The notes below the pieces were generated by a model, which was not told the origin of the DNA, did not search any database, and saw only the letters and a list, made by a program, of their open reading frames with translations. The position numbers and the translations under genes were made by a program. A stretch of 64,000 bases of DNA from Saprospiraceae bacterium (GTDB lineage: Bacteria > Bacteroidota > Bacteroidia > Chitinophagales > Saprospiraceae): assembly GCA_022842725.1 (NCBI GenBank), contig JALHOZ010000001.1, positions 295,968 to 359,967 on the forward strand, written 5' to 3'. Positions 56,310 through 63,779 of the stretch are shown piece by piece; the stretch's first letter is position 1; each line of letters opens with the position of its first letter.

Positions 56310-57107
56310 ATGAATTCACTTACCCGTATTTTTCATTTATGTTTGTTCATTATGTTATTGTTCAGTTCTGAAAGATTGATTGGACAAGGGTTGGCAGAAA
56401 AATATTTTAATGTTTCTTTTCAATATAGCAAACAAAATATAAAAACAAAAGCCGGACCTTACAATGTCGCTTATACAAATAGTTTAGGAAGTTTTTCCTC
56501 ATTGTATGAGATTTCGCCAGAGTATAGTAGTAATTTATATCAGTTTGGGGTTGGATTCGGCAAATTTAAAGGTTTCAACCATAAAATTTGTTTTGATTTG
56601 CTCAGAGGTAAGATAGAAAAAGGGCAATTCGGATATTTTTTGGGATATAATATTGCATTTGAAGGAAATAAAAATGATTTTTTAATCAATCCTTCAATGG
56701 GTCTGTTAGCAGGAAATACAAATATTATCTTAGAAGAAATTCGGAACAAGGATGGTATTATTAACCTGTACGGCGAAAATTATCCTGCCAATTATGTTTC
56801 CATAATGCAAAAATTTAGTAGTTGGATAGTCAGACCTTCATGTTCATTTACATATTTAATTAAACAATATGTTGGTTTAAATGTAGAGGTCGGATATGAT
56901 TTTGCTATTGAAGGTGAAAATGGAAATTATAAAGTTGATTTTGTCGAATTTAAGGATTCTCCAAAAGAGATAGAACATGCCATTACAGATGAAAATTATT
57001 CAGTGATCGGTCCTGCCGGGAAACTTTCCAAATCCAGGATATACGGATTAACCGGTTTTTACTGGTCAATAGGTTTAAGTATTTATAAGAGTTATGACTA
57101 CGACTAA
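56310..57107 (+). CDS. Hypothetical exported protein, probable outer-membrane barrel
   Basis: Start moved to the ATG at 56310; signal peptide; Gly/aromatic beta-rich pattern. Confidence 0.6.
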   Translation: MNSLTRIFHLCLFIMLLFSSERLIGQGLAEKYFNVSFQYSKQNIKTKAGPYNVAYTNSLGSFSSLYEISPEYSSNLYQFGVGFGKFKGFNHKICFDLLRGKIEKGQFGYFLGYNIAFEGNKNDFLINPSMGLLAGNTNIILEEIRNKDGIINLYGENYPANYVSIMQKFSSWIVRPSCSFTYLIKQYVGLNVEVGYDFAIEGENGNYKVDFVEFKDSPKEIEHAITDENYSVIGPAGKLSKSRIYGLTGFYWSIGLSIYKSYDYD

Positions 57108-57223
57108 CACTTTATGTGGTTGGAAAGGATGAAATATATTATTACTTGTTTTTTATGAATAGCTAAAAGGAATGTATTTTCCTGATTAAAATATTTTCCA
57201 TTATAAATTTAATTTCAAGGTTG

Positions 57224-58750
57224 TTAGTTTTTAGGTATAAAAATGGCTCCTGTTTTTCCGTTTTGTTCCACAACCCATTTATCCTGATAAAGTTGAGCAT
57301 GTTTTGAAAAAATTGGGTTAATAATTATTTTACCATTTTGATCAATGATACCATATTTTCCTTTGTTTTTAAGAATAAACAAAGGTATGTTGTTTTTATC
57401 TCTCGGGTTTAATCTGTTGCCTACGTCTTCATAACTTACGGGTTTTTCTGAAGTCAGAAAATCCTTTATAAAGTATACTTTAGCATTTTCATTTAATTTA
57501 TTCACTCTGACGGTGTTGCTTTCTTTATTAAAAGTTAGTGAATGTCCATTGGCAAATTCTTTTAAAACTTTACCTTCTGTGTTATACCAAGTTACTTTAT
57601 TTAATGTATCCGTTATAACATATCCATCATCAATTATCATTAAAGAATTATAAAATCCTGCAAATAATACTTTTCCGGTTTTATTGAGAATTTCATGATG
57701 TTTACTTTTTTTATCTCCGAAACGGCCAATAAATAATCCATCGCGAAAGGTCAGGTGATCATATTTTGGTTCAACAATTACTTTTTTATCTGAAAAATTA
57801 AATAATCCTCTCTTTTCATCTTTGTCTTTGAAGGCAAGAACATCGCCACTTTTTTCATTTGTTATTGTATTAAAATCAAAAGTAAATGATTGTTTATTTT
57901 CAACATCATATATGATTGTTTCTTTACTTAAGGGAATAATTACCAATGAAGAATTGTTGATTCTGTGCGGATATACATTAAATGTATCGGCCAGCAGAGG
58001 TTTTAATTGGAGATCAGTAAGAAGATATTTTTTATTGTATTCAAATATCATAATATCCAAACTGTCATCCAACCATATGTTATTGCTTGGTGCAATATTA
58101 ATAGGTTGAAAATCCTTATTGTACAAGAATGCTTTGTCTTTTGTTCTGTTCGTATAGAATCCTTTTTTATGATGGACCAAATTGTTTGGTGATTCATCCA
58201 AAGATTTATAGAAGTTTCCATTTAAGTCGAAAATTCTGGTTTTTTGTGATCCATTTCCTTCAGCAACATAAAATTTGTTGTCAAAGAGTCTGGGGTTTAC
58301 GGCATCAGTTAGTCTTAATACAGTATCCTGAGCCTTGTTGATATAAGCAGTATAACCTTTGGCTTTAATACCAAATAGTTTTCCCGACTGTAAAGTATAA
58401 TCTTTGTTCTTTTCAGTATTCATTTTAAACCAATGAGCGTGTGCCTTTTCTCCGATTTCTTTTGAAACTGAATATCCTTCGAGATCGAAGTATAACATTT
58501 GTTTTCCGTCATGTACTGAGATAACGTTACTTTCGGCATACAAATTCAGACTTTCATATTGTATCGGGATTATGACCTCATTGGTTATCGATTTAACTCC
58601 TTTAAGCCTTCCTTTTTCAACATATATAAGGTTTTTAGTTGAATTTTCTATATTAATATTATCAATATCTGTATAAATTGGTTCTAAAAACCATGTGGGT
58701 GATTGACATTGTATATCATGTAAAAAAGTGGTTGAAAAGAAAATCATCAT
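57224..58750 (-). CDS. WG-repeat containing exported protein
   Basis: GRLKGVKSITNEVIIPIQYESLNLY, RGLFNFSDKKVIVEPKYDHL, KGKYGIIDQNGKIIINPIFSK. Start moved to the internal MMIFFSTTFLHDIQCQ (signal-like); the ORF itself extends to 58825. Confidence 0.8.
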   Translation of the reverse strand: MMIFFSTTFLHDIQCQSPTWFLEPIYTDIDNINIENSTKNLIYVEKGRLKGVKSITNEVIIPIQYESLNLYAESNVISVHDGKQMLYFDLEGYSVSKEIGEKAHAHWFKMNTEKNKDYTLQSGKLFGIKAKGYTAYINKAQDTVLRLTDAVNPRLFDNKFYVAEGNGSQKTRIFDLNGNFYKSLDESPNNLVHHKKGFYTNRTKDKAFLYNKDFQPINIAPSNNIWLDDSLDIMIFEYNKKYLLTDLQLKPLLADTFNVYPHRINNSSLVIIPLSKETIIYDVENKQSFTFDFNTITNEKSGDVLAFKDKDEKRGLFNFSDKKVIVEPKYDHLTFRDGLFIGRFGDKKSKHHEILNKTGKVLFAGFYNSLMIIDDGYVITDTLNKVTWYNTEGKVLKEFANGHSLTFNKESNTVRVNKLNENAKVYFIKDFLTSEKPVSYEDVGNRLNPRDKNNIPLFILKNKGKYGIIDQNGKIIINPIFSKHAQLYQDKWVVEQNGKTGAIFIPKN

Positions 58751-58761
58751 AAAATAGCAAA

Positions 58762-58788
58762 TTGTTTGAATCAAATTAACTATTTTTG
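58762..58788 (+). promoter_or_regulatory. Candidate promoter for the 58861-63779 gene cluster: TTG-N16-TATTTTTG
   Basis: TATTTTTG at 58781-58788 (TAnnTTTG) with TTG at 58762-58764, 73 bp before the first start codon. Confidence 0.45.
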
Positions 58789-58860
58789 TCACACTTTTAA
58801 AAGATTTATAATTTTTATAAGTCATTGTGATGCTGATTTTAATAATGGAACAAATATAAT

Positions 58861-59316
58861 ATGAAAAATGTAATCATCGTATTATTTCTGATTTTTTCAG
58901 GCTTGATGTATTCATGTAGTACAAAAAAGTTGTCAGGAGAAACAATAAGTGCAAAAGAAAAGCCTCAGGGTTTGATTGAAGTTACTTCCAAAGGTTATGG
59001 ATCTTTAAAATCTGAATCTGTAAACAATGCAGTTCATAATGCCTTTACAAATATACTGGTTTACGGTATACCGCAGTCTAACCAAAAAAGACCTTTATTA
59101 GGTAATCAGGCAGTTCAGGTATTTGAAAGAAATAAAAAATACTTTGATAAGTTTTTTAAAAATGACCTGTCATCTTTCATATTAAATCAAAAGGTTCTGT
59201 CATTCAATCCAACTAATATAACAGAAGCATCTTCGGAAGTTTGGATGGAAATCAATCTGGACGCACTCAGAAGAAAGTTAGAAAATGATAAAATTATTTC
59301 AACTTTCGGGTTATAA
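58861..59316 (+). CDS. LPP20/FlgP-like small lipoprotein
   Basis: Lipobox GLMYSC; IEVTSKGYGSLKSESVNNAVHNAFTNILVYGIPQS resembles the GYG...A..NA pattern of LPP20/FlgT N-terminal domains. Confidence 0.55.
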   Translation: MKNVIIVLFLIFSGLMYSCSTKKLSGETISAKEKPQGLIEVTSKGYGSLKSESVNNAVHNAFTNILVYGIPQSNQKRPLLGNQAVQVFERNKKYFDKFFKNDLSSFILNQKVLSFNPTNITEASSEVWMEINLDALRRKLENDKIISTFGL

Positions 59317-59332
59317 ATATAAATATAAATTC

Positions 59333-60208
59333 ATGAGACATATTATTTTATTTATTTGTACAGGCCTACCTTTATATTTTTTTGGTGGATTAATATTAAA
59401 AGCTCAAAACAGTGTGATTCAGCCTAAAATTATGGTGATACCATACTCAAAATCCAATCAGAATATGATGCAGACTTTTGAGAGTAATGATTTAGTAAGA
59501 TTGGCAATTTCAAAAGTTAAAAGTGGTTTTGAATCCCGAAATTTTCCTACGGTTGATTTTGTATCCAATATGAAGATGTTGTCAAATGATCAGGCTATGG
59601 AGATAGAAAATCAAACTTCTATAAAACAACAATTGATTGAAATGTCGGGAGCTGATATTTATGTTGAAGTTGAAACTACCGTAAACAGAAGTAGTGGAGG
59701 CAATAGTGTTACTGTCATTTTGTCTGCCTATGATGCGTACACCAGTATGACGATGTCAAATGAAACCGGAGTTTCGGATAGGTTTTATACAGAATCTTTT
59801 GAAAAGCTTGTAATGAAAAAGGTAGATGAAATGATGGATAATTTTCTAAATACAATGAATAGTCGTTTTGAAGATATAAGACTGAACGGTAAGTCATTGT
59901 TTTTGAATGTTGGAATAAGAGAAGGTTCGGAAAAAGATATGGATTTTGAAACTAAAGACGGACAGTCATTAAGTGAAATAATAGAAAGTTGGGTAGAGGC
60001 TAATTCATTTAACGGCAGTTATCATATTCAGGGAGTAACAAAAAGTAAAATCATATTTAATGAAATAAGAATTCCTGTTAAGGATGCTAATGGGAATAAT
60101 TATAAATCAAGTCAGTTTGTCGCTGCATTACGTAAATATCTTTCCGGTCAGGATATAGAAACCGAACGTGATATTCAGGGTAACAGAATTTTTATTTCAA
60201 TTTTATAA
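59333..60208 (+). CDS. DUF6175-like exported protein
   Basis: QPKIMVIPYSKSNQ...NDLVRLAISKVKSGFESRNFPTVDF...ALRKYLSGQ; start moved to the ATG at 59333 after the preceding stop. Confidence 0.6.
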   Translation: MRHIILFICTGLPLYFFGGLILKAQNSVIQPKIMVIPYSKSNQNMMQTFESNDLVRLAISKVKSGFESRNFPTVDFVSNMKMLSNDQAMEIENQTSIKQQLIEMSGADIYVEVETTVNRSSGGNSVTVILSAYDAYTSMTMSNETGVSDRFYTESFEKLVMKKVDEMMDNFLNTMNSRFEDIRLNGKSLFLNVGIREGSEKDMDFETKDGQSLSEIIESWVEANSFNGSYHIQGVTKSKIIFNEIRIPVKDANGNNYKSSQFVAALRKYLSGQDIETERDIQGNRIFISIL

Positions 60209-60269
60209 ATTTGTGGAATAAGAATTTACCTTTTCTTTTAAGTATATTGCTTATCTAATAAAATGTATT

Positions 60270-61091
60270 ATGATCCGAATTAAAAAAATTATGATGTTTT
60301 GTGCTTTAAATTTATTGATTTTACAAAATTTGAAAGCACAACAGATATTTACGAGTATTGTAAGTCAGGATCCTTTAATACAAAACCAGGTAGCTGAATT
60401 ATCAGATTTATTTATCATAAATGAAATGCCCAAGGTTACTGCAAAGGTTGACATTATTAAAGAACAAATGGTTGATGTAAAATCAGCTTCCAATTTGAAA
60501 GTTGTGAAACTTTTATTAACTGTTCAATTATTCCAATTGTCAGGAAATAAATCAGTTGGCAGTAAAATGTTTACCTTTTCAGGTAGCGGGAAAACTGAAG
60601 AAACTGCTATGTATAATGCAATTACTAATATTAAAAAAGGTAGAAATGGTATAAAAAATTATCTTGAGAAAGTAAATAATGAAACATCTCAGCCTGATTG
60701 TGCTTTGGCGCAATCAGAATTGTATGAATATATTAATTCAGGGGATAATTTAAAGGCATTACATTTAAGCAGACAATTTTCTTATTATTGTAGTGAACAT
60801 AAATATTTATTTGAAAATACATTTGAACAAATTCAGACTTTGAATTGTGAGAAATATTTACTTAATGCAAAAGCATATTCTGCAAACAAAGAATTTGGTC
60901 TCGCGGTCAGGGAAATTTTAAGTATTCAACCGGGTACTAAATGTTTTTTGAAAGCTGAAAAAGAAATTGAGTCAATATCAAAAGCGTACGATATAGAAAA
61001 TGATAAACTATATTTAATGTATAAAGAGACAGCCGGGGACCAACAAAAGTATATGGAATTTTTTATAGCAACGTTAATGAAGATCAGATAA
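60270..61091 (+). CDS. Exported protein with LPP20-like N-terminal segment and helical C-terminus
   Basis: Signal peptide; KMFTFSGSGKTEETAMYNAITNIKKGRNGIKNYLEKV; Cys-containing helical repeat region. Confidence 0.5.
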   Translation: MIRIKKIMMFCALNLLILQNLKAQQIFTSIVSQDPLIQNQVAELSDLFIINEMPKVTAKVDIIKEQMVDVKSASNLKVVKLLLTVQLFQLSGNKSVGSKMFTFSGSGKTEETAMYNAITNIKKGRNGIKNYLEKVNNETSQPDCALAQSELYEYINSGDNLKALHLSRQFSYYCSEHKYLFENTFEQIQTLNCEKYLLNAKAYSANKEFGLAVREILSIQPGTKCFLKAEKEIESISKAYDIENDKLYLMYKETAGDQQKYMEFFIATLMKIR

Positions 61092-61115
61092 AAAAATGTT
61101 TAATATTTATTGATT

Positions 61116-61880
61116 ATGTTTACTAAAATATTTTCTATATTTTTGTTTCTTATCATTTTGTCTCTTAATTGCTGTGGACAAAAGTTAATTCTCTCCATAG
61201 ATGATATATCCTATGATCAATCAAGATTTCAGTATGCAGCTACTTTTATAAAACAATCCTTTGAGAAAAATTTTTTAAAACATAAAGGTGTGACAATTGT
61301 TGACAGAGACCAAACTCAATCTGTACTCAAGGAGCGTGAATTACAAAAGAACGAATCCTTTATTGATGGAGTAACTGTCAAACAGGACAAAGCTCTTGGT
61401 GCGCAGTATATGATAAAACTTTTGTATGTAAGTAAAAACAATGAATTAACATTAAAATTAATAGACATTGAAACCGGAGCTTTAATTTTGTTTAAGAATT
61501 ACCCGCTCAATGATTTTGTAAATTCTTCAAATTATAGGATTGGCAGAGAGGATTTTTTTGATCGGTATATAAAGGAACAAGTACAGCATCTGATATATGA
61601 ATTGGATATGCATCCTGAAATCAACCTTGTAAGATTAGAAAAGAAGAATAATAAAGAGATGGCTTTATTGTATTGTCCGGATGGGTGTAATTTGAAATCC
61701 GGGGATGAATTGAAAGTTTATTTCTTGAAAGATAGTGAATATAAATTGAAAGAAACTGTTGGAACAATTAAAGTTAAAGAAGTGGAAGGTGCCAAGTCTT
61801 GTCTGGCAGAAATTAAAGATGGAAAAAATGATATTTTACAATATTTGCATAAAAATTTAAAGTGTTATGTACAAAATTAA
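61116..61880 (+). CDS. CsgG-like protein with FlgT-C-like C-terminal segment
   Basis: VTIVDRDQTQSVLKERELQKNESFIDGVTVKQDKALGAQYMIKLLYVSKNNELTLKLIDIETGALI (CsgG pattern), CNLKSGDELKVYFLKDSEYKLKETVGTIKVKEVEGAKS. ATG start at 61116. Confidence 0.65.
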   Translation: MFTKIFSIFLFLIILSLNCCGQKLILSIDDISYDQSRFQYAATFIKQSFEKNFLKHKGVTIVDRDQTQSVLKERELQKNESFIDGVTVKQDKALGAQYMIKLLYVSKNNELTLKLIDIETGALILFKNYPLNDFVNSSNYRIGREDFFDRYIKEQVQHLIYELDMHPEINLVRLEKKNNKEMALLYCPDGCNLKSGDELKVYFLKDSEYKLKETVGTIKVKEVEGAKSCLAEIKDGKNDILQYLHKNLKCYVQN

Positions 61881-62733
61881 TTTAGTTTTTTTATTATTAT
61901 TTGGATTTCAGGTTGCCATTTATGGACAAATTACGCAAGGATTTTTAGACAGTCTGTCATTTACCTCTGGTTATCCTAATGGTATTACAGTTTATCCTGT
62001 AGTTGTAAATGATATAAGAATGTCGGAGAAACTATTTTTAGATATAAACAATGCTCATCTGGCTGGTGTAAAAAATTCCGGTATTTTGAATCCTGTTACG
62101 CAGATTTCCAAAAAACATGTTAAAAAAAATGAATTGGACGTAAGTCTGGCAGATGTGATAAAACATTCTGGGCAGCCGTGTATTTCCATATTAAAATTTC
62201 AAATTATGGATATGTATTCAAATTATGATTTTATAGAAGATTTTACACCACTTACTTTTATCAATATTTTGGCAACCCATTATGTATATGATATCAGTAC
62301 CGGAAAAAAAATTCATAGTAAATTAATTCATGTGAGGCTTGATCTAACTAAATTTGCGAACCGGTATTTGCAGAATGACGAAATATGCCGGGTTATTGGA
62401 AATGAAATCAAAAGTGGATTACAGAGCAGGTTTTCGATATATTCCAATGTTGTTGCCATGGAAAAAGATGACAAAAACAAGGCAAAGTGGATTGTTGTTG
62501 ACGGAAGTTTTTCCGATAAATCAGAAAAAAAGGATTTGTATATAAACAAGGTTGTAAAGACATTCAAAAAAGATGATCAATTATATTATCAAATTGAAAC
62601 TATAGGAAAGGCAAATTTTAAACAAAAGTATAACCCTACAACTATGATGTATACAATTAGTCAGGGTGCAAAAGAATTGGGACAATACAATACTAAAAAC
62701 CTTCCTGTATTTCTGAGTACACATTCCTTTTAG
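61867..62733 (+). CDS. Exported protein, putative member of the CsgG/FlgT-like cluster
   Basis: Signal peptide; start overlaps the preceding stop by 14 bp; ITVYPVVVNDIRMSEKLFLDINNAHLAG; same layout of N-terminal alpha/beta and C-terminal beta segments. Confidence 0.5.
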   Translation: MYKINLVFLLLFGFQVAIYGQITQGFLDSLSFTSGYPNGITVYPVVVNDIRMSEKLFLDINNAHLAGVKNSGILNPVTQISKKHVKKNELDVSLADVIKHSGQPCISILKFQIMDMYSNYDFIEDFTPLTFINILATHYVYDISTGKKIHSKLIHVRLDLTKFANRYLQNDEICRVIGNEIKSGLQSRFSIYSNVVAMEKDDKNKAKWIVVDGSFSDKSEKKDLYINKVVKTFKKDDQLYYQIETIGKANFKQKYNPTTMMYTISQGAKELGQYNTKNLPVFLSTHSF

Positions 62734-62792
62734 TTGTTTTATTTCTAATAATAAAATCTAAATTTGTAATCTTAACTTTAAATTTATTAAAA

Positions 62793-63779
62793 ATGAATTT
62801 ATTTTATAAAATTAGTGTATATTTCTTTTTATTTATTTTGTGCTTTAATATGGATCTGTATGCACAGAAATATATGGCCCCTGTAAATATTGAAATACAA
62901 AAGCCGGCAATAAAAATTACAGATTTACAAAATAATTTGGATATTGTTGTATATGAAAGTATGACTAATTATTTTTCAGGTCATCAGAATTTATTTAATC
63001 TCATTGACAGAAGAGATATGGAACAAATTGAAGAGGAAAGATCTTTGTTTAAAAACAAAACTTCAGGAAATTTTCAGTCTGCTGCCATGTTTGGAACACA
63101 AATAATTATAGAAAGTACGATTAAGAACGTCAGAGAAAAAATTGATAGTGCGTGTGTTGAAATTAAAACTCCTACAAAGAAAGTGGGTAATGTTCAGTTG
63201 TATGACAGTAAAATGACGGAATGTTCTTTGTATATAATGACGTATTCTTTTAATCTTGAACTTTCAGCAATTGATGTTGAAACGGGATCTGTAATTGAAA
63301 CCATTAGTTTGTCTGTTTCCACACAAGGAAGTACTAAATATGTGGCAGGAAAAAGAAATAAAGATGATATGAGAAGGGATGCCATGAGGAGAATGCATGG
63401 TTGTATTCGGAATGTTTTGAATGAAAGTAGCTTATTTATAACAAAAATTAATATTCCGGTTTTGGGAGTATTTAAAGAAAATGTAAAAAAGAGGGAAGCT
63501 CAGGAACTATTAGTTTTGGGAGCCCATTCGACATTTGTGCCTTACGGTCTTGATATGGAAGTTTTTGAAATTATTGAAGATAAAATAGGATCTGATGTTA
63601 TAAAGAGGCAAGTTCTCATTGGGAACGGTAAAATAGTATCTTCAACCAATGGTCATTTTGTTCTTGATGTTTCAAAGGGTAAAAGCGAAATATTTGAAAA
63701 AATATCAGCCAATACTTCTTTATATGTTAGGCTTGGAAAAAATATGATCAATAAAACATGTACTAATACATTAAATTGA
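62793..63779 (+). CDS. CsgG-like protein with FlgT-C-like C-terminal segment
   Basis: Signal peptide; NLFNLIDRRDMEQIEEERSLFKNKTSGNFQSAAMFGTQIIIESTIKNV...LELSAIDVETGSVIETISLSVSTQGSTKYV; C-terminal beta-rich VFEIIEDKIGSDVIKRQVLIGNGKIVSSTNGHFVLDVSKG. Confidence 0.6.
   Translation: MNLFYKISVYFFLFILCFNMDLYAQKYMAPVNIEIQKPAIKITDLQNNLDIVVYESMTNYFSGHQNLFNLIDRRDMEQIEEERSLFKNKTSGNFQSAAMFGTQIIIESTIKNVREKIDSACVEIKTPTKKVGNVQLYDSKMTECSLYIMTYSFNLELSAIDVETGSVIETISLSVSTQGSTKYVAGKRNKDDMRRDAMRRMHGCIRNVLNESSLFITKINIPVLGVFKENVKKREAQELLVLGAHSTFVPYGLDMEVFEIIEDKIGSDVIKRQVLIGNGKIVSSTNGHFVLDVSKGKSEIFEKISANTSLYVRLGKNMINKTCTNTLN

Follow-up and report, generated by a model that had tools for sequence, protein, structure and literature searches.

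What do six adjacent genes for exported proteins, at the end of a contig from a Saprospiraceae bacterium, build together? The genes lie at 58861-63779 of the window, the 64,000-nt stretch of DNA analysed here (assembly GCA_022842725.1, contig JALHOZ010000001.1, positions 295,968 to 359,967). A preliminary description of this DNA proposed an undescribed envelope complex, perhaps a ring or pore. We are confident that the genes belong to a real, conserved and undescribed multi-protein envelope system. The set consists largely of CsgG/FlgT-like domains and is probably lipid-anchored through one of its members. That it encodes an outer-membrane-anchored periplasmic scaffold of Bacteroidota has, in our judgement, somewhat less than an even chance. 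More tentatively, and by analogy, this scaffold may resemble the flagellar H-ring in forming a ring or lattice: lipoprotein-anchored but non-flagellar, made of CsgG/FlgT-type subunits, with a fixed g1-g2-g3 core and an exchangeable second part, and serving some envelope machine. The six genes are the following:

58861..59316, plus strand: g1, a small lipoprotein with a GYG...A..NA block; core gene
59333..60208, plus strand: g2, a DUF6175 protein with an N-terminal CsgG/PelC/FlgT-like domain and a C-terminal α/β domain; core gene
60270..61091, plus strand: g3, an exported protein with an N-terminal domain and a tetratricopeptide repeat (TPR)-like C-terminal half with four conserved cysteines; core gene
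61116..61880, plus strand: g4, a CsgG/LpoB/TolB-N-like domain with a FlgT_C-like tail, without membrane hairpins
61867..62733, plus strand: g5, a divergent paralogue of g4, overlapping it by 14 bp
62793..63779, plus strand: g6, a paralogue of g4 with an insertion at the site of CsgG hairpin 1; the last gene seen

All six open reading frames (ORFs) of the preliminary description are there, and they are as tightly spaced as it held. The g1-g2 gap is 16 bp, counted from the g2 ATG at 59333 (a longer g2 ORF begins at 59285); the others are 61 bp (g2-g3), 24 bp (g3-g4), -14 bp (g4-g5) and 59 bp (g5-g6). Export signals can be read in the sequences of all six gene products, as had been claimed, and a plausible lipobox, the non-canonical MYSC, occurs among the six only in g1.

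The second gene, previously called DUF6175-like, matches PF19672 with an E-value of 7.6e-74 (248.9 bits, cut-off 23) over model positions 2-292 of 293. DUF6175 is present in 14/150 genomes from the order, 29/150 from the family and 19/398 from the phylum; we found no mention of it in the literature searched. Conservation of the gene neighbourhood had been proposed as a check, and it is seen among the approximately 48 DUF6175 genes whose surroundings were examined. Besides the window, about 45 Bacteroidota loci show the g1-g2-g3 synteny; in nearly all the surroundings examined, DUF6175 has a g1 homologue directly upstream and a g3 homologue directly downstream. The genes are separated by short gaps or overlaps, mostly of a few bp (median about 9 bp for 43 g2-g3 pairs), and their clustering is far above chance. 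Some of the exceptions to the order trace to contig ends, to overlapping starts of ORFs or to loci that lack g1.

The core genes also occur together. In 149 genomes of the family, g2 and g3 are both present in 26, g2 only in 2, g3 only in 5 and neither in 116 (Fisher test, 8e-22); the corresponding counts for g2 and g1 are 23, 5, 1 and 120 (4e-21). Distances among the proteins are correlated (Mantel r 0.45-0.75), shared ancestry being included in this figure as in the co-occurrence tests. Several Bacteroidota families pass the set on as one unit, and its patchy distribution suggests repeated joint gain or loss of these genes. In three loci (L104-L106) the g1 and DUF6175 parts are joined in one protein, the g1 part being weak in L106. 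This fusion adjoins a protein that combines an LPP20 domain with a stretch matching the N-terminal part of g3. In another locus (L090, G165:C5), a single cluster contains two genes for DUF6175 proteins together with three CsgG-like paralogues.

Patchiness within the family and the phylum, together with the free exchange of the second part, would also suit an envelope gene set without any supramolecular assembly, that is, separate periplasmic binding factors serving housekeeping or stress. The g1-g2 fusion and the near-invariant core order argue instead for physical contact, and we hold such a loose set to be unlikely.

The N-terminal part of g2 is CsgG-like, with an hhalign probability of 96%, or 83% without signal peptides; a sequence search of the PDB with DUF6175 gave nothing useful. 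An AlphaFold2 model of g2, built on five sequences, is confident, with a predicted local distance difference test (pLDDT) score of 83. Foldseek matches it to FlgT (E-values of 7.5e-6 and 4.4e-5), PelBC (3.4e-5), GNA1162 (4.4e-5) and CsgG (1.4e-4), all with a probability of 1.00; overall, E-values to FlgT, PelC, GNA1162 and CsgG range from 7.5e-6 to 1e-3. Among PDB entries, a ring that contains FlgT matches best, and FlgT itself ranks just below it. The CsgG/FlgT fold anticipated in the preliminary description is thus recovered in the g2 model, and DUF6175 gains a fold assignment.

The same model points to the main rival explanation, in which the cluster is an export accessory. A CsgG/PelC-like periplasmic collar would sit on an outer-membrane barrel (the upstream gene gm1, described below, or another) and gate the secretion of a polymer, either polysaccharide or protein, in the way that PelC serves PelB. 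The g2 N-terminal part is of the same fold class as PelC (Foldseek E-value 3e-5), and the model matches PelBC as well. The locus encodes a lipoprotein and a TPR-like protein and perhaps a barrel (gm1), to be compared with PelB, a TPR and barrel protein that works with a ring of the lipoprotein PelC (PMC12141448). PelC is a lipoprotein, however, whereas g2 is none and carries an additional C-terminal domain. Near the cluster, neither a PelB-like TPR-barrel protein nor genes for Pel synthesis were seen, and the genes seen conserved with the core include no polymer synthase, curlin or export barrel. gm1 is found in only three loci, and g4 lacks the CsgG hairpins. We consider an export accessory somewhat unlikely.

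A CsgG pattern had been reported in the genes at 61116 and 62793, g4 and g6, and profile searches agree. g4 exceeds the Pfam LpoB cut-off (PF13036, 23.2 against 22.3 bits); its 30 relatives match LpoB (19) and CsgG (16), and weakly FlgT_C (2) and TolB_N (2). The window g4 itself has no match to PF03783, and its hhalign probability to CsgG is 97%. g6 is linked to g4 at 99.8% (99.7% without signal peptides). Its relatives match CsgG (up to 1.3e-6), LpoB and, weakly, FlgT_M. g6 itself matches the CsgG 4UV3 profile with an E-value of 0.029 and CsgG by hhalign at 69% with a rebuilt reference set (94% with the first set). The CsgG-like character extends beyond these two genes, to the DUF6175 N-terminal part and to g5 at 61867, which is linked to g4 at 97.4% (96.3% without signal peptides). 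The overlap of g4 and g5 is 11-20 bp in 4/4 loci measured. In loci of this CsgG type, g4, g5, g6 and a longer g7, found in other genomes, are all paralogues (hhalign 97-99.8%). Links of g3 and g1 to g4 were rejected as a signal-peptide effect: they are gone once signal peptides are removed.

Similar proteins are also encoded away from the cluster. A lone g7-like ORF of 559 aa lies elsewhere in the same genome (L121:7721-9400, G000:C9; E-value 2.4e-37 to the g7 profile), as does a CsgG-like exported protein of 355 aa (L122:7754-8821, G000:C5; 5.9e-9 to g4). Other CsgG-domain proteins of Bacteroidota (L131, L133, L140), of about 305 aa, seemingly carry a FlgT_C-like tail.

Since LpoB is the only Pfam family whose cut-off the window g4 passes, and most of its relatives match it, g4 and its paralogues could be peptidoglycan-synthase regulators, acting on cell-wall synthases as LpoB does. 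The NCBIfam equivalog model of LpoB, however, gives g4 20.4 bits against a cut-off of 110.55. g4 is also without a clear lipid anchor, has an extra FlgT_C-like domain and several paralogues, and nearly as many of its relatives match CsgG. A regulator of this type appears improbable to us.

A CsgG-like membrane pore without curli would draw on the CsgG-type domain in g4, g5 and g6, and on the insertion that g6 has where hairpin 1 lies in CsgG. g4 and g6 do share the periplasmic domain of the CsgG channel, but they are not lipoproteins and have a FlgT_C-like C-terminal tail. Each CsgG subunit has two membrane hairpins. When g4 is aligned to E. coli CsgG, hairpin 1 is deleted and hairpin 2 is not aligned; the rebuilt reference set gives the same result. 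Many g4 relatives are equally short in this region. In g6, hairpin 2 is not recognisable, and the insertions of its homologues at the first site are shorter and variable. With the hairpins missing in g4, and with the insertion in g6 confined to the first site, a CsgG-type barrel is unlikely, and we regard the pore as very improbable. The preliminary proposal of a ring or pore without a known partner therefore loses its pore. The lack of a known partner agrees with the genome (95.5% complete), which has no flagellin N-terminal domain (other flagellar genes were not searched) and no match to the CsgG family PF03783 (csgA/E/F homologues were not searched).

In the collected loci, 49 short proteins are homologous to the lipoprotein g1; 26 of them have a lipobox by a strict pattern, and more by eye. 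g1 had been likened to LPP20/FlgP, an assignment that we reject on sequence: none of 44 g1 relatives matches LPP20 (PF02169), and hhalign against a rebuilt LPP20 alignment gives a probability of 4%. The genome as a whole has no LPP20 match, and searches of Pfam and PDB sequences with g1 and with g3 gave nothing useful. The AlphaFold2 model of g1 (pLDDT 78) runs β-β-α-[helical insert]-β-β-α, in outline strand-helix-insert-strand-strand-helix. FlgP has an SHS2-like fold in which an insertion at the corresponding place accompanies ring formation (PMC12222027). The predicted order of strands and helices in g1 suggests a fit to this fold, although its insertion is helical.

For g3, 48 homologues were found in the collected loci; TPR and ARM repeats are matched by 15 and 7 of 43 relatives, respectively. 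Its conserved cysteines are C144, C174, C193 and C225. Some genomes that lack DUF6175 also have g3-like genes, with unrelated neighbours (L118:4120-4956, L119:7866-8621, L120:6697-7602).

How might these proteins act together as a scaffold? g1 would tether the complex to a membrane; as its cysteine is not followed by an acidic signal for surface export, this is probably the outer membrane, on its periplasmic side. Direct binding between g1 and g2 is suggested by the fused protein of distant relatives, and g3 could be a disulphide-braced TPR adaptor. Through their CsgG/PelC/FlgT-type domains, g2 and g4-g6 would oligomerise into a ring or lattice. It may work around some partner, like the flagellar H-ring of Vibrio or the collar of PelC, which is a 12-mer. 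A ring is the most economical guess, because the relatives CsgG, PelC and FlgT form rings (PDB titles; PMC7990780, PMC12141448).

Like the Vibrio H-ring (FlgO, FlgP, FlgT), the cluster comprises a lipoprotein and periplasmic proteins. The likeness is strengthened by the best match of the g2 model and by the weak FlgT_C and FlgT_M matches among g4 and g6 relatives. In contrast to the H-ring, no FlgT_N domain was found, and the cluster has extra DUF6175 and TPR-like proteins. If a ring is built, H-ring-like structures would exist outside flagella, and FlgT/CsgG-type subunits would have a non-flagellar setting in which to evolve.

Several points weigh against this scaffold. Ring formation is argued by analogy, and folds of the CsgG superfamily also occur in proteins such as LpoB, for which no ring is known. 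The TM-scores of the g2 model are modest, at 0.30-0.33 on the query and 0.5-0.59 on PelC/GNA1162. Some g1 relatives have no lipid anchor. Foldseek gives nothing significant for the g1 model; Tip-alpha, which is structurally related to Lpp20, appears at an E-value of 1.4. Finally, shared ancestry may contribute to the co-inheritance of the core.

The part of the gene set beyond the core is exchangeable. g4-type genes alone accompany the core in 30 loci, an alternative family alone in 14, both in one and neither in four, which are mostly cut by contig ends. The alternative family consists of exported proteins of 400-600 aa with a Y-x-R-x-S-L start, encoded upstream of the core in place of the g4-type genes. 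It looks unrelated to them, and the replacement is almost exclusive. The family has no match in Pfam or NCBIfam; one member matches an outer-membrane protein barrel domain below the cut-off, which the export accessory would count in its favour. Its members include:

L031:3433-4794, alternative-family member
L078:7097-8782, alternative-family member
L099:6212-7573, alternative-family member
L103:6623-8320, alternative-family member
L106:10185-11975, alternative-family member

The conserved envelope set of the preliminary description stands, but not its limit of six genes, as two upstream genes probably join it:

56310..57107, plus strand: gm1, an exported protein of about 265 aa with a beta-barrel-like appearance; probably an accessory gene of the sub-type
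57224..58825, minus strand: a WG-repeat exported protein (PF14903, 5.7e-7), divergent from g1; probably an accessory gene of the sub-type

Two loci, L025 and L089, are most like the window and have both genes. Homologues of gm1 occur at the same position in these two only (phmmer, 5e-15 and 2e-16), and divergent homologues of the WG-repeat gene adjoin g1 in both (1.5e-20 and 3e-21). Because these closest loci have the same two extra genes, the local module probably comprises eight genes, 56310-63779. gm1 has no match in Pfam or NCBIfam and, from the appearance of its sequence, may be a beta-barrel. Downstream, the contig and the window end 221 bp past g6, with no long ORF in between. PADLOC found no anti-phage defence match, and a plasmid collection held no g4 relative. 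Matches to a Bacteroidota-type promoter consensus were no commoner than in shuffled sequences, with none at the operon. The start codons of the WG-repeat gene and g1 are only 35 bp apart (58826-58860); with so little space, a promoter is probably located within a reading frame, or one of the starts has been called wrongly.

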